A stretch of DNA of 42,808 nt from Ilumatobacteraceae bacterium (GTDB lineage Bacteria; Actinomycetota; Acidimicrobiia; Acidimicrobiales; Iamiaceae). The translations under genes and the position numbers were made by a program. This document shows, piece by piece, positions 10,866 through 30,025 of the stretch; positions within the stretch are counted from its first letter, which is position 1, and each line of letters starts with the position of its first letter. Under the pieces are notes generated by a model. The model was not told the DNA's origin and made no database searches. It saw only the letters and a program-made list of their open reading frames with translations. The stretch spans positions 1 to 42,808 of the forward strand of contig JAOBWH010000190.1 of assembly GCA_025463265.1 (NCBI GenBank), given 5' to 3'.

Positions 10866-10896
10866 TGGGCCAGTTGACCACGCATTCCCGGAAACG

Positions 10897-10910: not shown

Positions 10911-10956
10911 GCATCGGGTTGAGGTGGACGACGCTCACCCCTGGAGGTGATCTCAG

Positions 10957-12034: not shown

Positions 12035-12039
12035 CTCGG

Positions 12040-12159
12040 TCAGATTCGCTGGCCGGTGCTGATGCGGTACCGGGTGTCGAGGTCGCCGGCGTAGTCGCTT
12101 CTGATGGTGACCTCGTCTTCATGGGTCACCATCACCGCACTGTGCATCACCTCGCTCAC
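12040..12159 (-). CDS. 39-residue putative ORF overlapping the upstream small membrane gene
   Basis: GTG 12159 overlaps the stop of the upstream gene as GTGA. The frame encodes 39 residues with ordinary composition (EVTIRSDYAGDLDTRYRIS), unlike the Arg/Pro-rich sequences of shadow frames. It may be a real small protein, a C-terminal part of the upstream gene displaced by a frameshift, or debris near the island end. No function can be given. Confidence 0.3.
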   Translation of the reverse strand: MSEVMHSAVMVTHEDEVTIRSDYAGDLDTRYRISTGQRI

Positions 12160-12515: not shown

Positions 12516-12684
12516 GTCTCGATCTCCCTGGCATTCGTCGTGGTCAGTCGGGGGTATCGGAGGCTAACTCATCCTCTCCGATCGGGGCCTTGAATCTCGG
12601 CGACCATCAGGCGCGTGGCAGGAGGCGCGGCGAGGTTCGTGATCTCGACGCATCGGCGCGGACTCGTCTGCGATCATCGCCCGT

Positions 12685-13290: not shown

Positions 13291-13306
13291 GTCCGCCAGG
13301 TCGGCC

Positions 13307-13339
13307 CTAGCCCTAGTGCTAGGTCGCAGCTAGTCCTAG
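13307..13339. repeat. cluster of five CTAG tetranucleotides upstream of the serine recombinase
   Basis: CTAG occurs at 13307, 13313, 13319, 13330 and 13336, that is five times in 33 bases, with partial inverted symmetry (CCTAG...CTAGG). The tetranucleotide is generally rare in bacteria. It lies 17 bases after the TIR gene and about 80 bases before the recombinase start, where a resolvase-type crossover or binding site would be expected. Confidence 0.5.
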
Positions 13340-13417
13340 CAAGCGATGCCGCGACCTGCATGTTCGCAATACCTACGGGAACCGACACAGCAGCAGCGTT
13401 CAGAGCTACAACAAGCC

Positions 13418-14174
13418 ATGCAGAACAACGCGAAGAAGCTACGGCTGATCGGCTACCTCCGGTGCTCCACAGAAGGCCAGGTCGAAAAGTTCGGCCTGGA
13501 GGCCCAGCGCCAGGCGATCAGCGCCTGGGCGAAGGCCAACGGCCACCGTGTAATCGAGGTGGTGTCCGACGACGCCATCTCGGGCACGGTCGAGGCGCTG
13601 GAGCGTGAGGGCCTGGCGGCGGCGATCGATGCCGTCCAGCAGGGCCGTGCCGACGGCGTTCTGTGCGCCCGGCTCGACCGGCTCGCTCGCAGCCTGACGG
13701 TCCAGGAAGCTGCGCTCGGGCTGATCTGGCAGGCGGAAGGCCGGGTGTTCTGCGCCGACTCCGGCGAGGTCGCCGAGGACGATGCCGATGACCCGATGCG
13801 GACCGCCCTGAGGCAGATCGTCGGGGCCATAGCCCAGCTCGACCGTGCGTTGATTTCTAAGCGCCTCCGCGATGGCCGCAGGGTCAAGGCCGAGCAGGGC
13901 GGGTTCGTCGGTGGAGCGCCTCGCTACGGCTTCCGTGCTGCAGGCGGAGCTTGTCGAGGACCCGGCCGAGCAGGCCGTGGTGGCACGGATGCTGGCCCTC
14001 CGGTCTGCTGGCAGTTCGCTCAACTCGGTGGCCGGGGTGATGAACTCCGAGGGTGTGCCCACGAAGCGGGGTGGCCGCTGGACCGCTTCAGCAGTCTCCC
14101 GAGCCATCGACCCCGAGGCTCGGGAGCGTGCTCGGCGGCGCGCAGCGATCGCTCGAAACCGACGGGTCGCCTGA
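13418..14174 (+). pseudogene. serine recombinase (resolvase family), frameshifted
   Basis: Two frames together make one small serine recombinase of about 251 residues. From ATG 13418 the catalytic domain is intact: GYLRCST with nucleophile Ser17, LDRLARS, and the C-terminal GGAPRYGFRA. Near 13930-13950 the protein continues in the next frame (LVEDPAEQAVVARM ... GVPTKRGGRW ... SAVSRA), the usual DNA-binding recombinase domain, to the stop at 14174. One base too many in GGCGGAG would explain the break; removing one G restores GFRAAGELVEDP. It is either inactivated, a sequencing error, or (unlikely) a programmed shift. A longer start at 13346 is possible. It marks the left part of the island as mobile DNA. 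Confidence 0.8.
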
Positions 14175-14224
14175 TCGGATGGGCCAGGTCTGGCCTGGCT
14201 TTGCTCCCGGCCGGTAGTTCGGGG

Positions 14225-15088
14225 CTACGAGGTCGTCTCGGCCGTGGGCGGTCCAGGTGGGTTTGAGGTCGGTGGTGCAAGGAAGCGGTTCGGGACCTTG
14301 ATGTCGTCGTGAGGGTTCGTCCAGAGGTACCGGCCGAGAACTATTAGGAGAGGTACTCCGACGAGGATGCCGAGGGCCGTGGCGATGTTCTCCGACGTTT
14401 CCGGCGAGACCGAGTTGAAGGTGACGATCCAGATCACTCCCCCGAAAAGCCCACGGAGCCAGGCGCAGGCTCCAATGCCACCAGCGATCATCGCCCAGAA
14501 CCTCCATCGGCCCGCTGAGATGGCTCCAGGACCGTTCATCGGCTTGTCGCCGCTGCGGCGTCGCGCTTCGACGGCGACGGCGAAGGTGATCGGCCCCCCA
14601 ATAGCGAGAAGCATGAACCAACCAAAGAGCCAGGCCCCCGTCTTGATCGCCGAATTCGAGGGTGTCGAGGGCCGGACCGTGGACCGTGGCCCGCGTTTCG
14701 GGTTGGGAACAGGGGCCAGCGCACAGAACTGCTCGGCCCACGAATTGACGCCCACGATCTGTCCGCCGCCGTTGATGGTGAACAGCGCAACGCCTGCCGA
14801 CTCGGCGAAAGTGCTGGCTTGGGGCGTGTAACCGCTGCCCGAGAAGAACAGGGCGTGCCGATGGCCGTGCGCGGCTCCCTTGAGGCGCTGAACATCCGGC
14901 CCACCTACCGGCTTGGCGTGCGCCTTGACTTGGCCTGCGATAGCGGGACCGACGAGGTCAAGACCCCCATCGGCACCAGAGGTCGTTAGGTTCACGTCGT
15001 GCCCGAGCGATCGGACGAAGTCCACGGCGGCGAATTCCATCGCCTGCCACGCGGTCGGCTCGCTCTGTCCGGTTGGCCCCCACCCCAC
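14225..15088 (-). CDS. Mrr-like restriction endonuclease fused to membrane helices
   Basis: A 287-residue protein. The N-terminal 110 residues match the Mrr_cat PD-(D/E)XK fold: GGLD44 strand, Q53-V-K55 in place of E-x-K, and FFSGSGYTPQA, the Mrr-family third strand. Two or three hydrophobic segments follow (about 148-175, 198-222, 232-256), then a Pro-rich tail. Membrane-anchored Mrr-like nucleases occur in phage-defence loci, where they may cut DNA entering at the envelope (inference). GTG 15088 is 6 bases after a TACGGT box, so it should be leaderless. It follows the NERD gene by 132 bp in the same direction but has its own promoter. Confidence 0.78.
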   Translation of the reverse strand: MGWGPTGQSEPTAWQAMEFAAVDFVRSLGHDVNLTTSGADGGLDLVGPAIAGQVKAHAKPVGGPDVQRLKGAAHGHRHALFFSGSGYTPQASTFAESAGVALFTINGGGQIVGVNSWAEQFCALAPVPNPKRGPRSTVRPSTPSNSAIKTGAWLFGWFMLLAIGGPITFAVAVEARRRSGDKPMNGPGAISAGRWRFWAMIAGGIGACAWLRGLFGGVIWIVTFNSVSPETSENIATALGILVGVPLLIVLGRYLWTNPHDDIKVPNRFLAPPTSNPPGPPTAETTS

Positions 15089-15220: not shown

Positions 15221-16051
15221 CTACTTCGAGGGGAGTCGGGCCGATAGGAGCCGGGCGATGCGGTCGATGTCCTCGGGTCCGAGTGGTCCCTCGGTCGCGA
15301 TGAGGTCGGCGAGCTTCGTGGGCCAACTGATCCACACCTCATCAAGTCGAAGCGGCTTGGCGAAGAAGATCGGCCACTCGGCCCCGACGAAGCTGAGTGC
15401 GGCCTGGATCGATGGCTTCTCGGTGCCGAGCGCCTTGGTCACGGCCTCGATCTGCCAGGCTAGGTCCGTGACGGTCTTGGTGCGGTCCCTGCCGCCGACG
15501 TAGAGCCGCAGGTCGGTCTTGAACCAGCCGCCCACATCGCGCTGCTCGACCTTGCCCTGGTACTTCTTGGCGTCGATGACCCAGACCCCGCTCGCTGCGA
15601 TGGCGAGGTGGTCGATGTTGCCGCGCGTGCCGGGCACCTTCCGGTCGTGGAGAAGTACCGCCTGGTCGCCGAGGCGGTCGTGAAGGACCTGGGCCACCCG
15701 CTCCTCGCCCGATGCCCCCGCGGCCCACGCCTTGGTGGTCTGGGGGTCGTCGGAGAGCCGCTTGGCGATCTTGCCCATCCGGCCGGTGCCCCACTTCTGC
15801 TCTATCTGCGCCTCACGTTTGGCGTGTCGCCGGTCATGCTCCTGTCGGGCTGACCGGCCGGGGTCGCCCACATCGATCGGAGGCGGTTCATGGACCGCGG
15901 TTCTGGCGGCGTCGCGCGGTGCGGCCGACGCCGTGGCGGCGGGGCAGGCGAGGCAGGTGACGGTCTTGGCAACGGGGTCCCATGTGGCGCGCGTTCCGGC
16001 GGGGAGCGGCGTCGCGCATGTGAAGCAGGTGTCGGCGCGACGGAGAGCCAT
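15221..16051 (-). CDS. zinc-ribbon / NERD (nuclease-related domain) protein
   Basis: A 276-residue protein with an N-terminal zinc ribbon (C9-x2-C12 ... C33-x2-C36), a charged linker, and a NERD domain (about 112-225): GASGEERVA, then NIDHLAIAASGVWVIDAKKY, whose D147 and D160-A-K162 are the family's equivalents of the PD-(D/E)XK active site. NERD is a predicted nuclease domain found with helicases and kinases. ATG 16051 is chosen because it directly precedes the ribbon; GTG 16066 is an alternative. It starts 25 bases after the DUF4268 stop, so it is probably the last gene of the mod-res-DUF4268-NERD run. Zinc ribbon plus nuclease suggests nucleic-acid or protein recognition coupled to cutting (inference). 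Confidence 0.8.
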   Translation of the reverse strand: MALRRADTCFTCATPLPAGTRATWDPVAKTVTCLACPAATASAAPRDAARTAVHEPPPIDVGDPGRSARQEHDRRHAKREAQIEQKWGTGRMGKIAKRLSDDPQTTKAWAAGASGEERVAQVLHDRLGDQAVLLHDRKVPGTRGNIDHLAIAASGVWVIDAKKYQGKVEQRDVGGWFKTDLRLYVGGRDRTKTVTDLAWQIEAVTKALGTEKPSIQAALSFVGAEWPIFFAKPLRLDEVWISWPTKLADLIATEGPLGPEDIDRIARLLSARLPSK

Positions 16052-16076
16052 GACCTTGGTCGCCACGAGGTCGGGG

Positions 16077-17048
16077 CTAGGCGTTCGGCTGGGTGGAGTC
16101 GAACGAGCGCACGTCGCTTGCCACAGTGGCGAGGGCACGGCGCATGCGTTCGCCTGCATCAAGGAACCAGTCGAGGAAGGTGGTCCAGCGGTCCTCGTCG
16201 TCGATGGTCCCCTCATCGAGGTAGGTAGCGATTCGGCAGGCTCGCCTGCCCTCGATGGGGTCGAACTCCAACGGCTGGCCGTAGGCAGCGTCGATGGTCT
16301 CGCGGCGGTCTCGGAGGAACTCGAACAGGGCGAGGTTGGCTCCGCCGTTGCCGCGGTCTATGTACAGCTCGTGGCGAAGGCGGCCGCCCTGAGCGAAGGA
16401 GGGGTTGATCTGTGTTCCGGGGAAGGGTCCACCGAAGGACATCCAGTTCGCTGGCTGGGGCGTACCCCGCCGTCCCCACTCGCTGTGCTCGATGGCCTGG
16501 CGACCGAGGTACGCCGCCCAGAACGAGCGGTACTTCTCGCTGCGGGCGCTGGCTGAACCAGTGCGAGTCGCTGATCGGACCCGCTTCTGCCAGTCGTTCG
16601 GCTTCGCTACGACGTCGAATAGCGGAGCGGGGGCGGAGGTGCCGATGCGGACCAGGCTGAGCACCACGCCGAAAAAGTGGGTGTCCTCGCCGGTCTGCTC
16701 GTTCAGCCAGTCGAGGGCCTGGCGATGCTCGTCGCGGAAGGACGTGGCGATCCAAACGATGGTGGTCGCGCCCGTGCCTGCTGCGTAGGTGAGGACCTGG
16801 CCAAGGTGGGTGTGGTCAGTGGACTCCAACTGGTTCTCGACCATGAGTACGGCGTCGTTGGTGAGGTCCTGCCCTATTAGGTCGAGCGAGTACCCGCCGA
16901 CCGGATGCTCGGCTGCGTGTAGCTCTAGTTCGATGCCGAGTGCTCTACCGAGCCGCTCGGCGTTGTCGAGGAGCCAGGGCGTGAAGTCGCGAGGTTCGCT
17001 CGCCCACACCGTGCGCGGTTCAACAGGTTCGATGTCACCGAGTTCCAC
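16077..17048 (-). CDS. DUF4268 protein with nuclease-like N-terminal domain
   Basis: A 323-residue protein. The N-terminal half has the pattern YSLDLIGQD ... VENQLESTDHTHLGQVLTY, which recalls PD-(D/E)XK nucleases (Asp in the strand, then E-N-Q for E-x-K). The C-terminal half (about 175-320, with FWAAYLGR and the closing helix RWTTFLDWFLDA) matches DUF4268. Genes of this family are often found with restriction and other defence genes. GTG 17048 lies 6 bases after TAGTGT, so the transcript is probably leaderless even though the type III res gene ends only 60 bases upstream. Its own promoter suggests it can be made without Res. No biochemical role is established to my knowledge. Confidence 0.75.
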   Translation of the reverse strand: MELGDIEPVEPRTVWASEPRDFTPWLLDNAERLGRALGIELELHAAEHPVGGYSLDLIGQDLTNDAVLMVENQLESTDHTHLGQVLTYAAGTGATTIVWIATSFRDEHRQALDWLNEQTGEDTHFFGVVLSLVRIGTSAPAPLFDVVAKPNDWQKRVRSATRTGSASARSEKYRSFWAAYLGRQAIEHSEWGRRGTPQPANWMSFGGPFPGTQINPSFAQGGRLRHELYIDRGNGGANLALFEFLRDRRETIDAAYGQPLEFDPIEGRRACRIATYLDEGTIDDEDRWTTFLDWFLDAGERMRRALATVASDVRSFDSTQPNA

Positions 17049-17108: not shown

Positions 17109-19787
17109 CTATAGGTCGGCGGCTGACTTCAACCAACCGAAGTCGACGCCGATGGACTCGAAGTGCCGGTTTCCAAACAGGATCTTGAGACGTTCGGCTG
17201 GCCGCAGTTCGGTCAGGTCATTGGTACCCTTCGTTTCCCGGACGAGGTATGCGCGGTCGAGGCCGTCCTCGTCGGTCTTCACGATCGCCCAGTCGGGGTT
17301 GTAGGTGCCGAGTGGCGTGGCGACCTTGAACCACCAGGGGAGCTTGACGAACACCTTTACGTCCTCGCGCTTGGATAGAGCTTCGGCGAAGGCGCGTTCG
17401 ATGTCGGAGTCGATGATCACGTCCTCGTAGGCGCTGTTGTCCGCGGCCACGAGATTGGTCAGGTAGGACGTGAGTTCTGTCTCCTCAAGCAGTTGCATCT
17501 CGTAGACGGCGTCAGCGCCGCTGCCTGCGATCTTCTCGTAGGTGATGCCGGAGGCGAGTTCCTCCATGAGGGCGTTCTCGATCGCTGTGTGGGCCTCGTC
17601 CATGTACTTCTGCGGGTTCGTGGACGCCTCGCCGAGGGTCCCGCTGCCAACGAGTACTCGTCTGATGAGTGCCCGTGACACCGGCAGAGACCGTGCCAGA
17701 TGACCCAGCAGGTCGGGGATGGGATACGAACCGGCGAGGTCGGTCGGTGCCCGTTCGGTGATCACGGTGGCCGTCACGCCGGTCGTGTTGGACAACGTTT
17801 GGCGTGACTTGGTCGTGCGGATCTTCGGTGGCTGCAGGTCGCCGAGGTTTGCGAGCGTGGATGTTGCCCGGTCGACGACCTTGTCGGCGTCGTAGCTGAC
17901 CCGGTAGCGGGTGCGGTGCTTGATGGCGTCCCAGAGCGCCTTGAAGTCTGGGTCGTCGAGGACTCCGTCGCGCAGCCGGACCGTCTTTCGCTTACGGCGA
18001 TCCTTGACGCTGGCTCGGGCGAACTCGGTCCCAGACTCGTCCTCGATCTCCTTCTGCAGCGATGCTGCGAACTCCTCGTAGGACTCGTTGGCAACGATGG
18101 TGAGCCGGTTGACCATCGGGTCCTTGCACTGGTGGCCTGTCTGCATGAAGGGCAGGCGAAGGCCACGGCCGATCTCTTGGCGCTTCTTCACCTCGGATCG
18201 GGTGTCGTTCAAGGTGGTGATGACGAACACGTTCGGGTTGTCCCAGCCTTCGCGTAGGGCTGAATGACTGAAGATGAACCGAAGCGGCTCATCGCCGAAC
18301 ATCAGGTCGTCCTTCCGCCGCATGATTAGTTCGTAGGTGCGCCCATCATCGATGGTGGAGCCAGAGGTGTCCTTTGCATCGCCTCCTCGGGTCTTGGAGA
18401 AGTAGCTGCCCTGAGCCTCCTCCGCGGTGGGCAGGTCGAGGGTCTTGTACTTCGTCTGGGCCGCGAGGTCGTCGTATGCCTCGTAGAACCAACGGCGGAA
18501 CTTTGCATCCGGCGGGTCGTAGTTGGCGACACGGTCAATGAAGAACAGGCTCAGCACCTTGATCGGAGCGGGCAGATCGCCCGACGTGACACGGCGAGCA
18601 ATGTCGATCTCCTTGTCGAAATGCTCCCGGACCGCGGTGCGGATCTGTGTCTTCTGAATGGCGTCCCGGTCGGGACCGAAGCGCGTGCCCTTCTCAACCA
18701 CGATGCCGTTGGCGAACTCCACGGACTCCGTCTCGGCGTTGATCTCCTCGACCAGGTAGCCCTCGTACTGGGTCCGGCGTCCGCTCATCTCGTAGAGGTC
18801 CTCGTTCCCCGTGCCCTTGACCGTGAAGGTCTTTGGCTTGGGACCGGATCCTTCAGAGGTGTCGATCTTGATCCGTGCAGACACGCCGCGCTTCGACGCC
18901 GTCACCGACACGACCTCGATGTTGGGCCGATTGAGGTCGTCGTCTTGAACCACAGACCACACCTCGATCTGCTTGACCAGGTTCTGGCTGAGGGCGTCCG
19001 CTGGAGTCAGTCGGTGGACCAGGTTGTGGCGAGTGCGGTGGGTCGCTGAGTAGCGCAAGGTAGCGATGGGGTTCAAGCTCGCGATCGCCTTCTGGGAGAT
19101 CGGGCTTTCCATGTTCTGCGGCTCATCGAGCACCACGACCGGGTTCGTGGATCGCACGAAGTCGATAGGTGCGACGCCCATCGTTTGGTCCTGCGCCTGG
19201 TAGATCCGGTTCGTGTCCTTGTTGAAGGCATCCAGGTTGACGACCAGGATCGAGAGGTTCGTGCTCTGGGCGAAAGAGCGCAGGTCAGCCAGCCGAGCCG
19301 AGTTGTAGACCATTGATGTGTAGGGGACCCCGTCGTACAGGTCCCGAAGATGGTCACGTTGCAGCCGCAAGTTTGAGAGGGTGCCCTCGCGGATGGGCAC
19401 CGACGGCACCACGATGACGAACTTGGCGAAGCCGTAGACCCGGTGGAGTTCGAGGATGGTGCGCAAGTAGACGTAGGTCTTCCCGGTTCCGGTCTCCATC
19501 TCCACCGAGAAGTCGAGCGACTCCAGTTCTGCCTCACGAGGGAGACGCAGGGCTTCGGGTAGATGATTCTCGGCCTGCACGCTGCGCACGTTGTCCGCGA
19601 GAGTGCTGGCGTCGAGGACGAGGGAGTTGCCGATGCCGTGATCTGTGAACATCGTGCCTTCGTTCTCGGAGGGCATCTCGAACTGAGAACGGGCGAGACT
19701 CTGGCCGTCGAACACCCCGACGACCGCCGCAATCGCCTGGTGCTGGTACTCCTGATTCGGATCGAACTTGATTCCGTTGTCGCTCAT
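17109..19787 (-). CDS. type III restriction enzyme Res subunit
   Basis: An 892-residue SF2 translocase-nuclease that cuts DNA carrying unmodified sites together with Mod. Motifs in order: Walker A METGTGKT (97-104), motif II VVVLDEPQ (217-224), motif III SATHRT (248-253), motif V-like SALREGWDNPNVF (509-521), motif VI QEIGRGLRLP (537-546), and a C-terminal PD-(D/E)XK site D832 ... E851-T-K853. Length and order are those of intact Res proteins; no stop or frameshift is visible. Its ATG overlaps the stop of mod (ATGA), so it is translated by coupling. Because the mod gene is damaged, Res is probably not targeted in the usual way; see findings. Codon third positions carry more A/T than in the flanking core genes. 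Confidence 0.92.
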   Translation of the reverse strand: MSDNGIKFDPNQEYQHQAIAAVVGVFDGQSLARSQFEMPSENEGTMFTDHGIGNSLVLDASTLADNVRSVQAENHLPEALRLPREAELESLDFSVEMETGTGKTYVYLRTILELHRVYGFAKFVIVVPSVPIREGTLSNLRLQRDHLRDLYDGVPYTSMVYNSARLADLRSFAQSTNLSILVVNLDAFNKDTNRIYQAQDQTMGVAPIDFVRSTNPVVVLDEPQNMESPISQKAIASLNPIATLRYSATHRTRHNLVHRLTPADALSQNLVKQIEVWSVVQDDDLNRPNIEVVSVTASKRGVSARIKIDTSEGSGPKPKTFTVKGTGNEDLYEMSGRRTQYEGYLVEEINAETESVEFANGIVVEKGTRFGPDRDAIQKTQIRTAVREHFDKEIDIARRVTSGDLPAPIKVLSLFFIDRVANYDPPDAKFRRWFYEAYDDLAAQTKYKTLDLPTAEEAQGSYFSKTRGGDAKDTSGSTIDDGRTYELIMRRKDDLMFGDEPLRFIFSHSALREGWDNPNVFVITTLNDTRSEVKKRQEIGRGLRLPFMQTGHQCKDPMVNRLTIVANESYEEFAASLQKEIEDESGTEFARASVKDRRKRKTVRLRDGVLDDPDFKALWDAIKHRTRYRVSYDADKVVDRATSTLANLGDLQPPKIRTTKSRQTLSNTTGVTATVITERAPTDLAGSYPIPDLLGHLARSLPVSRALIRRVLVGSGTLGEASTNPQKYMDEAHTAIENALMEELASGITYEKIAGSGADAVYEMQLLEETELTSYLTNLVAADNSAYEDVIIDSDIERAFAEALSKREDVKVFVKLPWWFKVATPLGTYNPDWAIVKTDEDGLDRAYLVRETKGTNDLTELRPAERLKILFGNRHFESIGVDFGWLKSAADL

Positions 19788-21365
19788 GCGGTCTTCATCA
19801 CGATGTTGGCGTCGGCCAAGGAGAAGAACGCGTTCGTCTTCATCTCGTCGTTGCCGTTGAACGCCGCCTCCAGCATCACGACACGGGGCACGCCGAGGCC
19901 GACGAGGAAGTCAACGTGGTCCTGGGTCACCGACCGACCAAGGAACACTGCGACCCTTCCATCGCCGACCACGACCTGCTCGCCCTCGACCTCATGTCGG
20001 GCCAGCGTGGCATCGAGAGGGATCCCCTCCTTGAGAAGGATCTCCGCTGCCAGCCCCGAATCGGATGCCCCGGCGCGGACGTTGTGCTCGAACGCCAGCA
20101 GCGCCGCCTCCAAACCCTCCGCATCGGCCGGTGCCGCCTCGGCGTCCCACAGGTCGAAGTTGCTGTCGCCGAGTTGGTAGTACCGAAATCCGGGACCATC
20201 CCCGTCAGGGTGCTCCCTTGCGATCGACCGAACTAGCCGCTCCCGACAGATGTCCGCGATGGTGTCGAGGCCAACGGCCTTGGCGTTCTTGCCGGACTCC
20301 TTGGCCTCGTTCACCGGCTCTGGAAGCTGAACGAGAACAAATCGACGGTTGCTAGAAGGATGAATCTGATTGACGTGAATCACGCCGTGCCCGGCAGATC
20401 CTGAACCGGCGAAGAAGTCGAGGACCAGGTCGTCGGGGCCGGTGAGATACTCGACGAGAGTCGCGAGATCGATGAAGTGCTTCGGGTTGTCGAACACCCG
20501 CTGGTTGTCGAACATCTCATCGAACTTCTGGGAGGCCGTTTGCGCGTAACTGAACTGAACGCTCGGAAGTACCTGATCGTCTGAGTCAAACGTGTTCCGG
20601 CGACGGCCAGGGATGGTGGTGTGGTCGGGGCCGAAGGCGATTCGTCCGGCATCAATCTCCTCCTGCATCCGCTCGGGAGTCGAGAAGCGCCAACCGCCGC
20701 GCGGCTGCTTGCACGGCCTTCCCGTATCTGGATGCAACACGGGGTAGCGAGGCCCACCTCCGCCGGGCCAACCCACATCACCGTCTGTCCGGTATGGCCC
20801 CTGTTCATCGACCTTCGTGAAGCGCGCCAGCGGTTTACGGGGGTCATCGTCGTCCCACGTTGCGTACAGCGCCCTGAGTCCTTCGCGGACGGCGTCCCAG
20901 TCATCGCCAAACTCTGCATGCAGCCGGGTGAACTCATCTCGCACCTCGTCGACTCCGGGCTTCTCGGCGCGGAGCACAACGTCGTGTTCTTTGAGGTGGG
21001 CCTTGCTGCGGGCATAAACGTGCATGTACTCGTGGCCGACTGAGAACAACTTCGCGTCGTTCTTTCGGTTTCGATCCCACACCAGGCTGGCGACGAAGTT
21101 CTCGACGCCGAAGGCCGACCGGATGGAGGGTGGCGATGCTCCGGCGCTGCACTGCGCGGAGGGCCTCGGCTCGTCCAACCCATGACAGGGAATACCGCTC
21201 GTCCGCCTCTCCGGTAGCGGTGCCCAGCGCCTCCAGGAGCGCAGTGGCATCGATGGTGCCATCGACGAAAGCCTCGGGGATCAGTTCTCGAAGTGCCGCC
21301 TCTCGTTCGTCGATGGGCGCATCAGTTGCAAGGTCAACGCGTTCGGGGGTGTCTTCGTGGGGCAT
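19784..21365 (-). pseudogene. type III DNA methyltransferase Mod, internally deleted and frameshifted
   Basis: Two frames together resemble a Mod subunit (site-specific DNA-adenine methyltransferase). From ATG 21365 the normal N-terminus runs (IDEREAALRELIPEAF ... YSLSWVGRAEALRAV) to about 21130. From there the family sequence resumes in another frame at GVENFVASLVWDRNRKNDAK, through the cofactor motif LVLDFFAGSGSAGHG (about 19784 + 830 bases) to the stop. The segment that normally joins these parts, including the catalytic motif DPPY, is absent in all frames. The loss is on the order of 100 residues and also changes frame. The C-terminal frame is open from 21262 (GTG/ATG-type starts inside it give about 490 residues) and may still be translated and couple to res. 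It can no longer be a functional methyltransferase. Confidence 0.8.
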
Positions 21366-21505: not shown

Positions 21506-22240
21506 ATGAGGGGCGAGGCGTTGGCGCGAGATGAGTTCATAGAGAACAAGGCCACCAGGAATGAGCACCTGCTCAGTCCCCGCTTCGCTCCCGCCAACAT
21601 CCGTGAGCGAATGCAGCAGGCGTTCGATCCGCCGGTTACTGCGCTGAACGAGTGGGTCGTCGCCCTTCGAGACGACCCGAGACTCCCGCCCGACGCTGGA
21701 AGGACGATCCCGTTCTTCGACCCGCGCGGCGGCGGGGTCGAGGCCAAGGTCCTGTTTCTCATGCAGGACCCGTCCGAGGTCGCCACCTTCACCGGGTTCA
21801 TCAGCCCTGATAACAACGACCGCAGCGCCAACAACGCGACGCTGGCATGCCAGGAAGCGGGCCTAGAACCTCGTGACCGGGTCCACTGGAACATCTTCCC
21901 GTGGTGGGTGAACATCACCACGGGCGGCAAGCCGGTCGATCCATCCCGGCCACCGCAGAGCTACGCCGCCGCTAGACCTCTCGCCGCCCGGCTCCTCGGC
22001 GAGATGCTCGTCATGCTTCCCGCGCTCCAGGTTCTGATGCTTCTCGGCAACGAGGCGCAGGCCGGGTTCGAGCGGCTGGGAGCGCAGCGCGAGTTCTCGG
22101 GTCGGGGTATCACCGTGCTGCGTGGGCCGAGCACCTCGCCTCAGTCGTGGAACAACATCGACAGGGCAGACCCTCAGCAGCGGTATCGCCGAGAGATCGT
22201 CATCGAGAAGCTCACCGAAGCCGCCCGTTTGATCGCCTGA
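21506..22240 (+). CDS. uracil-DNA glycosylase superfamily-like protein
   Basis: A 244-residue protein whose core matches a bacterial UDG-superfamily branch: strand KVLFLMQDPS (81-90) in the place of the catalytic water-binding loop (GxDPGxx in classical UDGs), FISPDNNDRSANN (98-110), and HWNIFPWWV (127-135). The usual GQDPY motif is replaced by MQDPSE, so activity on uracil is uncertain. Start ATG 21506. Stop is 12 bases before the HNH gene, which has its own strong ribosome binding site; the two form a pair. UDG-fold proteins in defence loci are thought to act on modified phage bases, which would fit here (inference). Confidence 0.72.
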   Translation: MRGEALARDEFIENKATRNEHLLSPRFAPANIRERMQQAFDPPVTALNEWVVALRDDPRLPPDAGRTIPFFDPRGGGVEAKVLFLMQDPSEVATFTGFISPDNNDRSANNATLACQEAGLEPRDRVHWNIFPWWVNITTGGKPVDPSRPPQSYAAARPLAARLLGEMLVMLPALQVLMLLGNEAQAGFERLGAQREFSGRGITVLRGPSTSPQSWNNIDRADPQQRYRREIVIEKLTEAARLIA

Positions 22241-22252
22241 AGGAGAACCGCC

Positions 22253-22957
22253 GTGGCGTTGATCATCAGCTACGCATCCAACGGGCGTCGCGCCCAGGCC
22301 GAACTCGATGACTGGGAGGTTGACCGCGGGCCTGACGCGGGCGGGTTCTGGTTGCCCGAGCAGGCGGAGGACGGCGACCGGATTGCGTACTTCATCGGCG
22401 GCAAGCGCCAGGAGTTCGTCGCCACCGGCAGGGTGCAAGCGAACTGGAGGAGGGCAGGCCGCGGAACCTGGAAAGGCCACGAATACACCTGGGTCCGCCA
22501 ACCCCGCCCCATTCAGCCTCCGATCGGGGCCGCGGAGATGGAGCGGCTGTCGGGGCTGCAACCGCCGCGTGATGCAGAGGTGGTTCCCCGCCACCTTGCG
22601 GCTGCCGTCTGGGCAACCCTCCAGCACCGGCCGTTCGATCCAGAGGCGCGCGCCCTTGAGGGAACGCGAACTGAGGCCACCTCGAAGTACCGCAGCCCCA
22701 AGCTCCGTCAGGCAGCTCTGCAGCGTGCCAACGGGGTGTGCGAAGGCTGTGGCATCGACTATGGGACCTACGCCGGGAAGCTGGGCCGCAGATGCCTCGT
22801 CGTCCACCACACCAAGCAACTCCGCGACACAGACGAGCCAGCGTGGACCACAGTCAAGGAACTCGCCGTGGTGTGCGCCAACTGCCACATGCTCATCCAC
22901 CACGACCCCAAGGAGGCCCTCTCGATCGAGCAGCTGCATCGGGTGCTCCGCTCGTAG
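22253..22957 (+). CDS. HNH endonuclease with N-terminal EVE/PUA-like region
   Basis: A 234-residue protein. The C-terminus (about 145-225) is an HNH nuclease: C163-x2-C166, the H185-H186 pair in VVHHTKQL, and C208-x2-C211-H212 ... H216-H217. The N-terminal 80 residues (WLPEQAEDGDRIAYFIGG then EFVATGRV) recall EVE/PUA-like modified-base readers; this is a weaker call. Such reader-nuclease fusions cut DNA with modified cytosine (McrA-like logic). GTG 22253 follows AAGGAG at ideal spacing. Pairs with the UDG-like gene upstream, which also suggests modified-base recognition. Confidence 0.75.
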   Translation: MALIISYASNGRRAQAELDDWEVDRGPDAGGFWLPEQAEDGDRIAYFIGGKRQEFVATGRVQANWRRAGRGTWKGHEYTWVRQPRPIQPPIGAAEMERLSGLQPPRDAEVVPRHLAAAVWATLQHRPFDPEARALEGTRTEATSKYRSPKLRQAALQRANGVCEGCGIDYGTYAGKLGRRCLVVHHTKQLRDTDEPAWTTVKELAVVCANCHMLIHHDPKEALSIEQLHRVLRS

Positions 22958-23259
22958 CAGGCCACGGCAATCCTCGATGTCGGCACCCTGACCCTCAACT
23001 GCTGACGCTCAACCCTCGAGCATTCCCGCCAACCCTGAACCAGCCCACACATTGCCCCACACCGGAATCAGGGTCCCACGGGGCCTGCGAGCCGGACCGA
23101 GGGCATACAGGGCGAGACAGCGCCCAACAGTGGCGAGATGAAGCCGCTCGTGACGGCAACCGGGTCGATCAGCGCCCGGGAACCCTCGACCTGTAGCTCC
23201 TCAAGCCGTGGGAACCCTCTACCGCCCGCGCCGCACGCAGCGACGCGGGCTGACAGGGG
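22958..23259. other. 302-bp intergenic region without a convincing gene
   Basis: Both strands carry only short frames of Pro/Arg/Cys-rich noise. It has several loose repeats of the word ACCCT(C/G)A, two copies of GGGAACCCTC about 40 bases apart near 23180-23220, and a GC hairpin next to the following minus-strand gene. No RNA gene or attachment site is recognised. Confidence 0.5.
23224..23250 (-). terminator. terminator-like hairpin after the 136-residue unknown gene
   Basis: GCCCGCG (23224-23230) and CGCGGGC (23244-23250) form a 7-bp stem with a 13-base loop, 10 bases past the stop of the minus-strand gene. No T-run, so confidence is limited. Confidence 0.4.
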
Positions 23260-23670
23260 CTAGGCGGCTTCGCCGTCGATGACATCGCGCCAGTGGGGCG
23301 GGAGGTTGTTGTCCTTGGCGTACTGCTCCCAGGTGGAGGCGGGGGCGCTCGTGGGCGTGCCCGGCAGCGACCAGTAGGAGATCCGCCCGAGGTAGCTCCA
23401 CCGGCCGGTCGCCTCCCCGTACTGGAACTCGACCTTGCCCTGCCCGGCGAGGGTCCCCATCCGGCGAGCGAGGTAGGACGAGACGCTGTAGCGCCGCGGG
23501 CCGTAGGTGGTGTGACCGAACTCGCCGAGGAGCTCCTGGTACTCGTCCGGGTGGGCGAGCAGGAAGCGGCGCTCGATGATCGGCCATTCGACGGGACCCT
23601 CGCCGGGGACGAGGAGGCTGAGCAGCTTCTCGTAGATGCGGAGGCGCTTTGCGATGGATGACTTGGACAT
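23260..23670 (-). CDS. hypothetical protein (136 residues)
   Basis: A well-formed 136-residue protein without Cys motifs or TM segments. It begins with a basic helix (SKSSIAKRLRIYEKLLSLL), has a Tyr/Arg-rich middle (GHTTYGPRRYSVSSYLARRM) that could be a winged-helix-like DNA-binding fold, and ends in a TWEQYAKDNNLPPHWRDVIDGE helix. ATG 23670 has AAGGGAG upstream. Diverges from the next unknown gene over 74 bp that includes an A/T-rich repeat. I do not recognise the family; the recurring pattern suggests a conserved island gene, perhaps a regulator. Confidence 0.65.
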   Translation of the reverse strand: MSKSSIAKRLRIYEKLLSLLVPGEGPVEWPIIERRFLLAHPDEYQELLGEFGHTTYGPRRYSVSSYLARRMGTLAGQGKVEFQYGEATGRWSYLGRISYWSLPGTPTSAPASTWEQYAKDNNLPPHWRDVIDGEAA

Positions 23671-23732
23671 GACGGTACTCCCTTGTGGTGCTTGACCGCA
23701 CGAAGCATATACAAGGCATATGCACAGTCCAC

Positions 23733-23738
23733 TAGGAT
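23733..23738 (+). promoter_or_regulatory. -10 box of leaderless promoter for the 132-residue unknown gene
   Basis: TAGGAT with 6 bases to ATG 23745. Just upstream, GCATAT occurs twice (23705-23710 and 23716-23721) in an unusually A/T-rich patch shared with the divergent gene, a candidate operator. Confidence 0.6.
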
Positions 23739-23744
23739 GTGGCG

Positions 23745-24143
23745 ATGCAGATCACTATGACCCTGAACCCTGAGGACCCGACCGAACTCGCGTCGTCCAT
23801 CGCATTCCTCCAGCGGCTCACGAACCCCACCTCCGGTCAAGACGATGTCGAAGTGGTTCGGGGCCGCGTGCGTTCTCTCCTTCGCGGCTATGGCAGCGGT
23901 CGCCTCAACTACGTCCGGCTCATCGCCGAGCGCGCACCCGAGCGGGTGCCAGTCGACGAGGTCGTGGCGCTGTTCGACTCGCCCAAGGCCATCGGCGGAA
24001 CTCACTCGTCCATCGAGCGGTCGTGGCGCTCCTCTGGTGGCAGCGGGATGTTCATCGAGACGGATCGCCACGGCGACTCCCGCATGGACGCGAACCTCGC
24101 CGCCATCGCGCTCGAAGTCCTCGCCGAACTCCCACCGCCCTGA
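23745..24143 (+). CDS. hypothetical protein (132 residues), possible winged-helix fold
   Basis: A 132-residue protein with no TM segment. The centre (VRGRVRSLLRGYGSGRLNYVRLIAE, abbreviated RSLLRGYG...YVRLIAE, then SPKAIGGTHSSIERSW) has the look of a small helix-rich nucleic-acid-binding domain, and FIETDRHGDSRMD follows. ATG 23745 is preferred over GTG 23739 because it is 6 bases after the -10 box, as in other island genes. I do not recognise the family. It lies between a divergent unknown gene and a nuclease-fold gene in the same direction, 48 bp downstream. Confidence 0.65.
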   Translation: MQITMTLNPEDPTELASSIAFLQRLTNPTSGQDDVEVVRGRVRSLLRGYGSGRLNYVRLIAERAPERVPVDEVVALFDSPKAIGGTHSSIERSWRSSGGSGMFIETDRHGDSRMDANLAAIALEVLAELPPP

Positions 24144-24191
24144 CCGACCCCCTCGGCCGCGCCGTGGGACGGGTTAGGGAAGGATGCGGCG

Positions 24192-24731
24192 ATGGACGCG
24201 TTCGAGGATCTGACCGCCCGGCTGCTGTGGCGTGAGGGCTACTGGACTCGTCAGAGCTACAAGGTGGACATCACGAAGGCGGACAAGGCGTCGCTCGCCA
24301 ACCCGTACATGCCGCGCCCCGAGATCGACATCGTCGGCTACCGGCCCGCCACGGACACCGTCGTGTGGGTGGAGTGCAAGTCGTACCTGGATTCCGATGG
24401 CGTTCACATCTCCGCGTTCGACGGCACCAACGAGAAGTTCGCCAAGCGGTTCCGAGTGTTCACCAACCCGACCTTCCGCTCAGTCGTCAGCGAGCGCCTC
24501 CTGGAACAGCTCCTGGAAGACGGACTAATCCGTCCGACGGCCAAGCTGCGCTACTGGCTGGTCGCCGGACGAATCGCCGGGGCATGCCAGGAGAGCGTCC
24601 CAGCCCACTTCGCCGCCAACGGCTGGACCCTCCGCGACCGGGCCTGGATCCGCACCTCGCTCCAGGCCATCGCCAAAGAGGGCTACGAGGACGACGTGGT
24701 CACGATGGCTGCGAAGATGCTGGGGGACTAA
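24192..24731 (+). CDS. PD-(D/E)XK restriction-endonuclease-like protein
   Basis: A 179-residue protein with a PD-(D/E)XK core at its N-terminus: PEID46 strand, then VVWVE61-C-K63-SYLDS, preceded by a helix with FEDLTARLLWREGYW, the arrangement of small restriction-endonuclease-fold proteins. The remainder is helical with no other motif. GGAAGG lies 8 bases before ATG 24192. The next gene converges on it 11 bases after its stop. It lacks a visible partner methylase; it could be a stand-alone nuclease or work with the preceding 132-residue protein. Cys62 between the catalytic residues is typical for some subfamilies. Confidence 0.75.
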   Translation: MDAFEDLTARLLWREGYWTRQSYKVDITKADKASLANPYMPRPEIDIVGYRPATDTVVWVECKSYLDSDGVHISAFDGTNEKFAKRFRVFTNPTFRSVVSERLLEQLLEDGLIRPTAKLRYWLVAGRIAGACQESVPAHFAANGWTLRDRAWIRTSLQAIAKEGYEDDVVTMAAKMLGD

Positions 24732-25210: not shown

Positions 25211-25512
25211 GGGCTGAGCCTAGGTCTCGAACCTGACTGCGTCGTGGGGACCTGCGTACCACCGATGGCCTCGCGCACTGGGTGAGTCCGGGCCGAGCGG
25301 GTGGCCGTCGCAGAGTTTTCCGGGCGCGTGGTTAGGCATTGCCCGGGCCCTGGGCCGTGCAGATGAAGCCGATGGCCTCGTCCCCGCAGAGCTACAACAA
25401 CGTCTCCCCTGGTCAGAAGCTGCGGAGGCTGGCCCTCCCGAGAGCATCCACTTGCCTTCCTATTCTCCGGGGGTGGACACCCAGCGCAGACGAGTACCGA
25501 AAGGAGGCCCCG
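25211..25512. other. 302-bp region upstream of the tyrosine recombinase
   Basis: No gene is supported on either strand. It holds the promoter of the minus-strand zinc protein, two copies of CCGATGGCCTCG (25262-25273 and 25369-25380), and a GC-rich near-palindrome GCCCGGGCCCTGGGC at about 25340-25354. Phage-type integrases often have arm sites next to the gene, but I cannot prove an attachment site here. Confidence 0.4.
25217..25222 (-). promoter_or_regulatory. -10 box of leaderless promoter for the CxxC membrane gene
   Basis: TAGGCT (minus strand), 6 bases before GTG 25210. Confidence 0.5.
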
Positions 25513-26628
25513 GTGGCATTCATCAAGACGCGGAAGACCAGCAAGGGCGAGCCTCGGTACGACGTGGGCTACCGCGACCCCACCGGCAAGGTCCGGCGCA
25601 AGACCTTCCGCCGCCTGAAGGACGCCGAGAGCTACAAGCGTACCGTCGAGGTCGACGTGATCCAGGGCGTCTGGATCGACCCGCACGCCGGTGAGGTCGC
25701 CCTTGCCGAATACGCCGTCAACTGGCTGGAGGTGAAGCGGCCGCACATCAGCATCAACACCTATCGGCTCTACGAGAGCGAGCTGCGCTGCCACATCCTG
25801 CCTGCGCTTGGGGACTACCCCCTCGTGGCGTTGACGCCGTCGGTCATCAGGAAGTGGCACTCGAAGATGGTGGACGCCGCCCGGCCAGGACCTGTGACGG
25901 TCGCAAAGGTGTACCGGCTGCTCCGGTCCATGATGACGACCGCTGTCGAGGACGAGATGCTCCTCAGGAACCCCTGCATCATCAAAGGCGCAGGACAGGA
26001 GTTCAGCCCCGAACGGCCAATGCTTAGCGCATCCGATGTCATCCGCTTGGCCCAGGCGGTGCCCGCGAATCGACGCCTGCTCGTGCTGCTGGGCGGCTTC
26101 TCAGGGCTGCGCCTTGGTGAGCTTCTTGCCCTCCGTCGCCGCCATGTCGATGCCCTTCACGGACGCATCATCGTGAACGAGTCTGCGATCGATGTGACGG
26201 GAGTGCCAAGCGCCACCAAGGCCCCCAAGAGCGAGGCTGGCCGTCGAACGGTCCACCTGGCGTCGGAACTCATGCGAGAGATCGAGGCGCACCTCGATGC
26301 CTTCGCCGCCGTCGATCCCGAGGCGCACCTGTTCACCGGGGTGCGCGGCGGGCGGTTGCGGCGGGCGACCTGGCACAAGGAGTGGACCGACGCCAGGAAG
26401 GCGCTGAGTCTGACGGGGTACGTCTTCCACGACACCCGCCACCATGCGGGCACCACGTTCTCGCAGTTGGGAGCGACGACGAAGGAGTCGATGCGGCGGC
26501 TGGGCCAGTCGACGCCGCAGGCAGCGATGCGCTACCAGCACGCCACCGACGAGCGCGACCAGGAACTCGCAGCGAAGCAAGAGCGCCTCATGGCGGAGGC
26601 GATCCAGGTCGCGATCGGCCGTCTCTAG
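25513..26628 (+). CDS. tyrosine recombinase / integrase (phage integrase family)
   Basis: A 371-residue integrase that should excise or insert the surrounding element. Order: AP2-like arm-binding N-terminus (1-60), SAM-like core-binding domain (about 62-160) and catalytic domain (about 168-360) with R200 (GLRLGE), a Lys in the beta-hairpin (about K236), H306-D-T-R309, and nucleophile Tyr341. The second conserved His/Trp of LGH is Gln332 (LGQSTPQ), a known but less common state. GTG 25513 has AAAGGAGG at ideal spacing; a longer frame upstream is noise. It runs toward the tRNA-Gly, 3.3 kb away, and its end overlaps the convergent GHKL gene by 4 bases. Confidence 0.92.
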   Translation: MAFIKTRKTSKGEPRYDVGYRDPTGKVRRKTFRRLKDAESYKRTVEVDVIQGVWIDPHAGEVALAEYAVNWLEVKRPHISINTYRLYESELRCHILPALGDYPLVALTPSVIRKWHSKMVDAARPGPVTVAKVYRLLRSMMTTAVEDEMLLRNPCIIKGAGQEFSPERPMLSASDVIRLAQAVPANRRLLVLLGGFSGLRLGELLALRRRHVDALHGRIIVNESAIDVTGVPSATKAPKSEAGRRTVHLASELMREIEAHLDAFAAVDPEAHLFTGVRGGRLRRATWHKEWTDARKALSLTGYVFHDTRHHAGTTFSQLGATTKESMRRLGQSTPQAAMRYQHATDERDQELAAKQERLMAEAIQVAIGRL

Positions 26629-28601
26629 GTGGCGGGGAAATCAGGCGGGCGTGTCGCTGAGGCGTCGTCATCTCGGTCGGGCGGAAGCAGTCGGCTCAGC
26701 GTGTCCGTCACCGATGCCTCCTCGTTCGGGCTGTACGACAAGCGGTCGCGGTAGAAATGGAGCCGCTGCCGGTTCTCCTCCAGGATCTCGGCCCAACGCC
26801 GCACTCGAATGGTGTAGGGATGCTTGGCGGAGGTCACCCCCACCGGAAGCTGGTCTTGATGCGTCATTTCCTCGATGTAGGAGTCGTAGTCATCGCCCAC
26901 GAGCCAGAAATCCCAGGTGACGTTGGGCGCGTGGTAGGTCGGATCCTTCGTGACAGCAATCGCGTACTGCGTGATCTGCGATAGCTCTTTCTCTGTGAGG
27001 GTCAGTGATGGACGCTTTAGTTCGACTACAAGGTGACGCTGACCCGTAGGGCCGTGGGCCGTACGGGACAGCATCAGGTCGATTCGGCGACGGGTGTTTC
27101 CGCCCGCGTCCGCTACGGCTTGTACGTCGGTGGTGTCGCGACCGAGAAGCTTGAGGTGTGCCTTCAGCACGGTCGTGAGCGAGCGCTCCGAGACGACAAG
27201 AGAGAATTCCTCACCGAACACCCACGTTCGGTTGTGGGCCAGGATCTTGTGCAGGTGGTCTCGTTCGTTCACATGGGTCTTGCCCTCAGGATCGAACAGC
27301 AGAAGTTGAAGGTCGCTTAGAAACCCGAGTCGATCAGTCACCGTCCGGGTGGCCTCGATGATTGAAGGTAGAGACGCAGTGGTGAGGATCTCATCGAAGT
27401 CGTCGAGTTGCTGAGGCGTCAGGTCCAGCACCTCAGTGAGCACCCGATGGAGTGATCCGGGGGACTGCTCGAGGGCCTCGCGGATGAGCCGCAACGAGAG
27501 TCGTGCAGCCCGAGGGTCATGAGCTACTGCCGGGGCAGCGGTTGCAGCGACGGCGTCGAAGACCGCGCGTTCCGTCTGTTCCAGAGCCGTGGTCGGTGCC
27601 GAAGGGTATGGGTAGACGTTGCTCGCCTTCCAGCCCTCGATCACTGTGCGCTTGGAGTCGGCGTCTCGACGATCCAGGTAGTCACCCAATGCACTGCGCG
27701 CTTCGGCGACGACGGGGCCAAGCAAGGCGTCGCCCATCTCAGCCAGCATCAGTCGGTCCTCGTGGAGGGCGAAGCCCGGCCACTCGACGTAGGTCGTCAC
27801 CTTCCGCTTGCTGGTTGGAAGATCGGTCGTGATCTCGTGCAGTACGACCCCATTCCCGTCGCACAGCAGGAGCATGGGCCTGAACCCAACGACGGATGAA
27901 CGCCACTCCACAAGCCGGACCTGCGGAGTGCCAAGGCCCACTCCGGGTCGCGGGCGAAGGGACACGCGCTCCTCGTTTTCGCGGATCGTCGCCGGGTCAA
28001 GAGGATGCCCGTCGTACTGAACGCGAACCTTCGGGTACTTCGCGAGGTACGCAGCGAGCCGAACGAGCAGGAAGTCGCTGGCGTTGTCCCCGAGGAGCGC
28101 GCCCGCCAGTTCGCGAGGTTGCTCGATAGTCACGGTTGTGCCCGGCGAGCCGGTCGCAAGTTGTTCGGGGCCTTCGACCTTGAACTCGGCGTCAGCCAGC
28201 GTGGCGACGACGGTCGCGCGCTCGAGGCCAGAGGTTCCTTCGGCCACGGACGACCAGATGACGGAGCCGCCAAGGGCAAAGGCCCGGAACCTGCCCTGGC
28301 CCTTCTTGCCGTGAAGCGAGCGCTTCCCGTTTTGGGAGAGGGTCTGGCCCTTCTTCCACGAGCCGCCAAGTTTCCTGAAGTCGCGGACGGCCTCGTCGTA
28401 GGTCATGCCGTGCCCGTCGTCGGTCAACACGATCCGGTCAACGCCATCGATCGGCGTGCGTCCGATAGAGACCGCCACGTTCTCCGCCTCGGCGTCGAGG
28501 CTGTTCCACACCAGTTCGAGGACACCCGCCAGCGGCTGGGTGGGCTTGCACAGTTCGTCGAACTGGTCGGCCTCAAGCTCGACCCGGAAGTTCTCGGTCA
28601 C
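26625..28601 (-). CDS. GHKL (Hsp90/MORC-like) ATPase fused to a PD-(D/E)XK nuclease domain
   Basis: A 658-residue protein. The N-terminal GHKL ATPase has the N-box ELVWNSLDAEA (29-39), G1 DDGHGM (61-66) and G2/lid GKKGQGRF (98-105) that bind ATP-Mg. A transducer-like region follows (about 190-330), then a helical middle and a C-terminal nuclease with D508 (RRIDLML) and E527-L-K529 (VVELKRPS), continuing into the usual third strand and helix. GHKL ATPases of this kind have been described beside or fused to restriction nucleases (MutL/MORC-like restriction proteins). ATP-driven dimer closure probably controls DNA binding or cutting. GTG 28601 lies 6 bases after TACGGT: leaderless. Divergent, 123 bp, from a metalloprotease gene. 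C-terminus overlaps the integrase end by 4 bases. Confidence 0.85.
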   Translation of the reverse strand: MTENFRVELEADQFDELCKPTQPLAGVLELVWNSLDAEAENVAVSIGRTPIDGVDRIVLTDDGHGMTYDEAVRDFRKLGGSWKKGQTLSQNGKRSLHGKKGQGRFRAFALGGSVIWSSVAEGTSGLERATVVATLADAEFKVEGPEQLATGSPGTTVTIEQPRELAGALLGDNASDFLLVRLAAYLAKYPKVRVQYDGHPLDPATIRENEERVSLRPRPGVGLGTPQVRLVEWRSSVVGFRPMLLLCDGNGVVLHEITTDLPTSKRKVTTYVEWPGFALHEDRLMLAEMGDALLGPVVAEARSALGDYLDRRDADSKRTVIEGWKASNVYPYPSAPTTALEQTERAVFDAVAATAAPAVAHDPRAARLSLRLIREALEQSPGSLHRVLTEVLDLTPQQLDDFDEILTTASLPSIIEATRTVTDRLGFLSDLQLLLFDPEGKTHVNERDHLHKILAHNRTWVFGEEFSLVVSERSLTTVLKAHLKLLGRDTTDVQAVADAGGNTRRRIDLMLSRTAHGPTGQRHLVVELKRPSLTLTEKELSQITQYAIAVTKDPTYHAPNVTWDFWLVGDDYDSYIEEMTHQDQLPVGVTSAKHPYTIRVRRWAEILEENRQRLHFYRDRLSYSPNEEASVTDTLSRLLPPDRDDDASATRPPDFPAT

Positions 28602-28607
28602 CCACCA

Positions 28608-28613
28608 ACCGTA
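28608..28613 (-). promoter_or_regulatory. -10 box of leaderless promoter for the GHKL-nuclease gene
   Basis: TACGGT (minus strand), 6 bases before GTG 28601, in the 123-bp divergent region shared with the metalloprotease. Confidence 0.55.
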
Positions 28614-28724
28614 CGCCGCCCCAATGACAGCGGAACTACGACGAGACTCGCCTGCCTCGTCAACTCCTCCGGCTCCGCTGCCGACTGCAGAGTAGAGATG
28701 GGGGGGTAGGTCGAAAGGACACAG

Positions 28725-29864
28725 ATGACGGGTCTAAGCGGATGCAACTGGAACCTTGCGGCCTCGGAGCAAAGCTTTCTGCGGGAGTACCCCGGTGAGC
28801 CGAGGAACTGGTACCACCGGATGGAAGCGGAGACCAGGTCAGGCTGGGGGGCCAAGGCGCAGGACATCCTGGACTTGGAGCCGCCTCACTCGAACGACTT
28901 CTGGCTGGAGGGGTCGCTCATCGACCTGCTGAACCTGTCGCCGCCTTCGATCCGCCAACAGGTCGACGCAGTCTTCGTCGTGAGAACGATGAGCCTGCAG
29001 ATGAACGCCGAGGCCTGGATGCCTCGCAAGGGAGAACAACTCGTGGGTGTCTACGACGGGACGCGCGGCGTTCTCCTGGCCTACGCGGCGATCATGCGAC
29101 GCTGCTACCACCTGATGCGCAGTCAGGCGGAGAGAGGCCACGGAACTGTCGGGGAAACGGTCACTTCCTACCTGTCCGAGATGGATGAGCTGTTAGCTGA
29201 CCCGGTGGTGGAAATACTGAACCGTCAACGGCAGGGCTGGGCCTCGGGCCAGGATGCGTATCTCGATGAAGCCGCTGCGGACCTGCTCAATTCGTACGAC
29301 GAGGTCGGACCGAGTGGGCTGGTCACGATCCGTGAACTGCTCGACCTGGCCGATCACTTCGTTTTGGGCCACGAGATCGGTCACCACGTCCTTGCGCACA
29401 CCCATCCACCGCAGTGGGGCGGGTGCGCCTTCCCGGCTCGGCTCCTGCTCGCCCAGGCGCGTCATGACCTCGGGGTCGAGGTCGGCCACGGCTGGACGGA
29501 GCGACAGGAGATGGAGTTCGACGCCGATGCCTTCGGCTTCTTGCTGTACGCGGGATGGTTCACGGAGGACGAACCTGATCGAACAGAGTGGTACCGGGCA
29601 ATCTTCGCCGCGATGCTCGCCCTTCCTGCCCTGGAAGACCTGGCAAGCGGTCCGGTACCCGACTCCGGCAAGCGGTTCGCCATGAGCGAACCGGAGTACC
29701 CGCCGTTGGCTGATCGCATCGACCAAATCGCGCGCCTGGTCCAAGCCTTTCCCCAGGAGCTGCAGAAGGAAGACCCGCACCACCCGGTCGGGTTGCTGCA
29801 GCAGATGCTCCTGTTCCGTGCGTTCCTCGTCGATTCCCGACGCCCGGTTGGCGATCGGAAGTGA
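28725..29864 (+). CDS. HExxH zinc metalloprotease of unknown family
   Basis: A 379-residue soluble protein with no signal peptide or TM segment. The zinc site is H216-E-I-G-H220 in FVLGHEIGHHVLAH, with the third ligand probably E264 in E-F-D-A-D, the ExxAD arrangement of M48-type gluzincins; the helix QEMEFDADAFGFLL fits. The N-terminal 150 residues are helical without known motif. ATG 28725 has AAAGGA upstream. It diverges from the GHKL-nuclease gene and is the last gene before the tRNA-Gly terminator. A cytoplasmic M48-like protease in a defence island may process a partner (candidate: the GHKL-nuclease) or kill the infected cell; this is inference. Confidence 0.8.
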   Translation: MTGLSGCNWNLAASEQSFLREYPGEPRNWYHRMEAETRSGWGAKAQDILDLEPPHSNDFWLEGSLIDLLNLSPPSIRQQVDAVFVVRTMSLQMNAEAWMPRKGEQLVGVYDGTRGVLLAYAAIMRRCYHLMRSQAERGHGTVGETVTSYLSEMDELLADPVVEILNRQRQGWASGQDAYLDEAAADLLNSYDEVGPSGLVTIRELLDLADHFVLGHEIGHHVLAHTHPPQWGGCAFPARLLLAQARHDLGVEVGHGWTERQEMEFDADAFGFLLYAGWFTEDEPDRTEWYRAIFAAMLALPALEDLASGPVPDSGKRFAMSEPEYPPLADRIDQIARLVQAFPQELQKEDPHHPVGLLQQMLLFRAFLVDSRRPVGDRK

Positions 29865-29948: not shown

Positions 29949-29954
29949 TTGCGG

Positions 29955-30025
29955 AGCGGGTGAGGAGAATCGAACTCCCGTATTCAGCTTGGGAAGCTGA
30001 TGTTCTGCCATTGAACTACACCCGC
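29955..30025 (-). tRNA. tRNA-Gly, anticodon CCC
   Basis: 71 bases on the minus strand fold as a standard cloverleaf. The acceptor arms GCGGGTG and CACCCGC pair fully, the T arm contains GTTCGATTC, and the anticodon stem TCAGC/GCTGA encloses loop TTCCCAA with anticodon CCC (reads GGG). The discriminator base is U, as in bacterial tRNA-Gly. CCA is not encoded. The accessory island abuts the 3' side, the usual place for integrase targets, though no second copy of the tRNA end was found by eye. Confidence 0.97.

Follow-up and report, generated by a model that had tools for sequence, protein, structure and literature searches.

VcSduA, a protein of Vibrio cholerae described in 2025, protects against phages on its own while host viability is kept, and the substitutions E27A and K557A each abolish protection, such that ATPase and nuclease residues are both needed (PMC12137116). 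It has been assigned to Shedu type I-D (PMC12137116). The paraMORC3 proteins, defined by Iyer, Abhiman and Aravind in 2008, join a GHKL module to an S5-like domain and an RE-fold nuclease and carry E-D-ExK motifs (PMC2292703). The family is laterally mobile, members bearing the nuclease are often without conserved neighbours, and paraMORCs reside mostly in restriction-modification (R-M) neighbourhoods (PMC2292703).

In a stretch of 42,808 nucleotides from an Ilumatobacteraceae bacterium (contig JAOBWH010000190.1, hereafter the window) we analysed a gene for a 658-residue protein, P0001 (26625..28601, minus strand, start codon GTG at 28601), that combines a GHKL (MORC-like) ATPase with a C-terminal Shedu-like PD-(D/E)XK nuclease. 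Facing away from it across an intergenic region of 123 bp (28602..28724) lies P0002 (28725..29864, plus strand, start codon ATG at 28725), a 379-residue orphan with HEIGH and EFDAD zinc-protease motifs. A preliminary description of this DNA had given both genes these positions, strands and lengths and had read P0001 as a GHKL ATPase with a C-terminal PD-(D/E)XK site, and it was correct on both counts. P0001 matches Pfam HATPase_c_3 at 1.7e-15, over the curated cut-off, and in a 46-sequence alignment of family members from genomes and viral contigs the GHKL residues E29, N33, D36 and D61-x-G63-x-G65 are invariant, as are G98, G101 and G103-R104; judged from these residues, the ATP-binding site is intact. 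An AlphaFold2 model of P0001 (pLDDT 85.9) gave the ATPase modules of MORC3 and MORC2 as best structural matches to residues 8-324 (Z 19-20; 276-287 residues aligned at an rmsd of ~4), with Hsp90 and MutL ranking behind, and this part of the model contains, after the GHKL domain, a predicted S5-like transducer domain as in MORC proteins. The Foldseek/VIA lists are dominated by the ATPase half, and the missing Shedu structure there is uninformative.

The nuclease active-site region of P0001 spans codons 508-529 (27015..27080, minus strand) and reads D508...E527-x-K529 (VELKRP). D508, E527, L528, K529, P531, Q542 and Y546 are invariant in the 46-member alignment and so is E446, and P0001 thus carries E446, D508 and E527-x-K529 as an E-D-ExK motif. 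When a family profile of the C-terminal 250 residues of P0001 was compared by hhalign with a profile of 12 SduA_C proteins, the two matched with a probability of 95% (E 3.8e-8) and with their D...ExK blocks aligned, while in control comparisons the ATPase half of P0001 reached 0.3% against the same SduA profile and the C-terminal half 1.9% against the N-termini of type I HsdR proteins. Single models capture this kinship poorly: Pfam SduA_C (DUF4263) had no match at E 0.1 to P0001 or to 13 aligned relatives, the PADLOC SduA model weakly matched two of 14 family members (best 0.0043), and HSDR_N_2 matched 13 of the 14, in P0001 under its curated cut-off. A 679-residue GHKL protein from a Nodosilinea genome (L166), whose alignment with P0001 is collinear in each of the two halves and which matches Pfam SduA_C at 1.1e-4, under the cut-off, bridges the two families. 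At E 0.001 Pfam SduA_C found no match in the genomes of Vibrio relatives, and among SduA_C proteins sampled from 148 genomes belonging to a single genus, none had the length of a GHKL fusion of the VcSduA type.

VcSduA and P0001 are alike in being single proteins with an N-terminal GHKL ATPase, a middle domain and a C-terminal PD-(D/E)XK nuclease, in having equivalent catalytic residues (E29 and K529 in P0001, E27 and K557 in VcSduA) and in residing on a mobile island among other defence genes. They differ in that Pfam SduA_C fails to score P0001 and in the spacing of ATPase and nuclease, which is 500 residues in P0001 and 530 in VcSduA, the latter being known here by its published residue numbers alone. 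Across the P0001 family 496-518 residues separate the catalytic glutamate of the ATPase half from the lysine of the nuclease, unlike in VcSduA, so P0001 does not belong to the VcSduA subfamily itself. With paraMORC3 proteins it shares the GHKL module, the S5-like domain, the RE-fold nuclease, the E-D-ExK motifs, lateral mobility and the frequent lack of constant neighbours; compared by description only, the published paraMORC3 proteins are mainly proteobacterial or from Bacteroidetes, whereas the P0001 branch is rich in Actinomycetota. From these sequence features we assign P0001 to the paraMORC3 type, as a branch sister to VcSduA, and our literature search found no member of this exact branch that had been tested against phages. 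The assertion that no described system matches the locus accordingly holds for the pair of genes, but not for the GHKL-nuclease on its own (PMC2292703, PMC12137116).

Members of the P0001 family number in the hundreds and span nine or more phyla, including Actinomycetota, Pseudomonadota, Acidobacteriota, Cyanobacteriota, Planctomycetota and Myxococcota, and they occur on plasmids and in prophages. Searches of genome contigs returned 346 stretches with relatives, the best 80 of the 346 all being near full length, and those of plasmids returned 84 records, in 36 of which the match extends over 80% or more of P0001; another 26 loci were found on viral contigs. Full-length relatives are 28-52% identical to P0001, which clusters in a tree with Acidimicrobiaceae sequences (100/99) and matches the phage protein family phrog_6203 at 7.2e-68, the latter probably representing a GHKL-nuclease family carried by prophages. 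Within Actinomycetota the distribution is patchy, as a full-length match was present in two of the 395 other genomes of an even sample of 396 that included the window's own.

The genes around P0001 homologues change from locus to locus. The three nearest relatives with long flanks (51-52% identity) have no neighbour in common with the window: two lie opposite an Hma system (HmaA, HmaB), and near the third are genes for a TrwC relaxase and for a protein of PDC-S37/Hhe type. The Hma systems, divergent from the P0001 homologue (L043, 454-7502; L045, 1-7838), are 80-96% identical between the two genomes. Elsewhere the neighbours include a type ISP R-M system, an LlaMI R-M system with Drt2, and Abi and toxin-antitoxin genes, and the commonest neighbour family was present at no more than 8 of 123 loci, bar a cluster of 13, apparently antisense frames of genes in the flanks. 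One order of genes does recur: at seven Streptomyces and Arthrobacter loci (L050, L053, L054, L063, L064, L068 and L082) a YgjP-like metallopeptidase gene and a type I R-M restriction gene lie directly upstream of the P0001 homologue. Separately, L045 encodes, downstream of its 51%-identical P0001 relative, a ThiF-domain frame and a CapP-like M78 peptidase (3.9e-17) at 10239-13660, a pair that may be a separate defence system. As its neighbours vary, with R-M systems of types I, II and ISP among them, P0001 behaves as a standalone gene; as many relatives adjoin R-M genes, some may work with R-M.

In the window itself, P0001 and P0002 are the final two genes of a mobile defence island of ~18 kb, integrase included, that occupies the region from ~12 to 29.95 kb. 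GC content in this region is mostly 61-67%, with flanks at 67-74%, and it jumps sharply from 64% to 74% at a tRNA-Gly(CCC) gene (29953..30025, minus strand, found by ARAGORN), which forms the right boundary and is the probable integration site. A phage-type tyrosine integrase (25510..26628, plus strand; Phage_integrase 3.7e-13, Phage_int_SAM_3 7e-14, phrog_1 integrase 2e-55) is convergent with P0001, its stop overlapping the 3' end of that gene. Further to the left the island encodes a UDG-superfamily-like protein, an HNH protein, two small frames and a Mrr/DUF234-like frame (21506-24731), a type III R-M pair (17109-21262; res, REase_III 7.6e-241; mod, MTase_III 1e-62), a NERD-domain protein and a DUF4268 protein (15221-17048), the latter matching the candidate defence family PDC-S11 at 2.3e-105, and a TIR-domain protein (TIR_2 1.7e-22) followed by a serine resolvase (12685-14266). 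The TIR-domain protein has weaker matches to SAVED-TIR, PDC-S66 and ThsB, and the HNH protein a weak type IV restriction match; the two small frames were unmatched. The best candidate for a duplicated end of the tRNA-Gly gene (16622-16638, 15 of 17 bases, E 0.97) is at chance level, and the left boundary of the island is accordingly given as approximate; in same-genus genomes, where an empty integration site was sought, the right-flank gene does not adjoin this tRNA gene.

P0002 is probably a true coding gene of foreign origin, because its GC content by codon position (69.7/42.9/78.7%) is like that of P0001 (68.6/45.1/76.8%) and unlike that of a host gene (GC3 94.9%). Its putative identity as a protease rests on motifs, H216-E217-I-G-H220 followed by E264-F-D-A267-D268, that is, HExxH and a downstream glutamate motif. 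The HEIGH/ExxAD signature ascribed to it in the preliminary description is therefore present, while family models give P0002 scores below the Pfam gathering thresholds (M48 13.8 bits, E 0.053, cut-off 20.3; M78 11.3 bits, E 0.32, cut-off 22). PADLOC returned weak local matches to U41 (3.7e-4) and capP (0.005); kinship with U41 was rejected, as this family merely re-finds the HExxH motif. CapP/ImmA (M78) peptidases likewise have an HExxH and a downstream glutamate motif, but just 14 residues of P0002 align with a CapP-like protein, and P0002 differs from these peptidases in its long unrelated N-terminal half and in having no repressor or HTH partner. We found no relatives of P0002 by tblastn of plasmids and phages, by HMM search of 396 genomes of the phylum and 395 of the class, or by scans, confirmed by pattern, of viral contigs and of genome contigs from 84,980 species, single-sequence scans of the latter kind detecting close relatives only. 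Marginal HMM matches were dismissed as chance, their alignment showing no HExxH in register, and patterns of motif spacing matched P0002 itself and nothing else. A single-sequence AlphaFold2 model was unusable (pLDDT 36.7).

The two genes had been proposed to share a divergent promoter and to form one system, with the protease activating the nuclease or the reverse; the action of CapP on CapH, or of proteases in other defence systems, would be a precedent. Their adjacency, divergent orientation, spacing of 123 bp and similar foreign codon composition are in keeping with this proposal, as are the intact zinc-protease motifs of P0002 and the metallopeptidases encoded near some relatives of P0001, namely the CapP-like M78 peptidase 2.8 kb downstream in L045 and the seven YgjP-like proteins directly upstream. 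The divergent geometry is real, but a search of the 123 bp detected neither a sigma-70-like promoter nor an inverted repeat. When P0002 was searched against all frames of at least 60 codons in 146 loci, 123 of them with a P0001 homologue and some of these with short flanks, only the window matched, and a P0002 homologue thus stood beside a P0001 homologue at 0 of 123 family loci, those of the 52%-identical relatives included, the observation that the preliminary description had itself named beforehand as speaking against the pair. Near the family, a strict pattern, blind to variants of the L045 type, picked up a single frame of the HExxH...ExxAD type in ~1.5 Mb of flanking sequence. Moreover, the YgjP genes accompany a restriction gene of type I R-M, and the CapP-like gene accompanies ThiF, so that both may belong to other systems, and VcSduA needs no partner (PMC12137116). 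The GHKL-nuclease and protease pair is not a conserved module, and we consider a single system of the two genes very unlikely; what endures of the proposed defence module is a nuclease of a defence kind within a defence island. Most probably, P0002 is carried in the island as a passenger without relation to P0001. We consider it very unlikely that P0002 is a new and very rare partner or regulator that makes a two-gene system, peculiar to this lineage, of a normally standalone GHKL-Shedu nuclease, in which case it might, for example, cleave an inhibitor or the nuclease itself upon phage infection.

That P0001 serves instead as a restriction or ATPase subunit of R-M, together with the type III R-M genes at 17109-21262 or with an unlinked methylase, would agree with the R-M neighbourhoods in which paraMORCs mostly lie and with the presence of the type III pair in the same island, 5 kb away. 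The type III system, however, already has its own helicase-nuclease, no methylase adjoins P0001, and several of its relatives are without an annotated R-M gene nearby. The BbrUII/HgiDII restriction enzymes (NF050001) resemble P0001 in their N-terminal GHKL stretch and in length (659 positions), but P0001 lacks their methylase partner and scores 58.9 bits where the cut-off is 550, with the best match limited to residues 27-124; membership in this family, far outside whose cut-off P0001 falls, was rejected. A role as an R-M subunit therefore seems unlikely. We regard as highly improbable that P0001 is a MutL-like DNA-repair or mobile-element maintenance factor rather than a defence protein: the MutL N-domain is among its sequence and structural matches and its relatives are common on plasmids, yet its nearest folds are those of MORC and not of MutL, its C-terminal half is a Shedu-like PD-(D/E)XK nuclease and not a MutL endonuclease, and its spread in Actinomycetota is patchy.

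We therefore favour, with a probability of about 0.75, the reading that P0001 belongs to the paraMORC3/GHKL-Shedu kind, works as an anti-phage effector on its own and is one item of an island integrated at tRNA-Gly. By analogy with VcSduA and GHKL enzymes, its MORC/MutL-like ATPase half would bind ATP and dimerise, the dimer would close round or next to DNA, and the resulting conformational change would license the C-terminal PD-(D/E)XK nuclease to cut invading DNA, thereby restricting phage. P0001 would act alone in this scheme, with the P0002 protease as a separate passenger.

P0001 is thus a real and probably functional defence gene; its kind is known, but its branch is under-annotated. VcSduA is the one tested example of GHKL-Shedu nucleases that we found in the literature, and our analysis outlines a large sister branch of it, rich in Actinomycetota and carried on plasmids and prophages, in which the ATPase and nuclease residues are invariant. 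Since the Pfam and PADLOC models mostly fail to recognise this branch as Shedu, surveys that use them undercount it.
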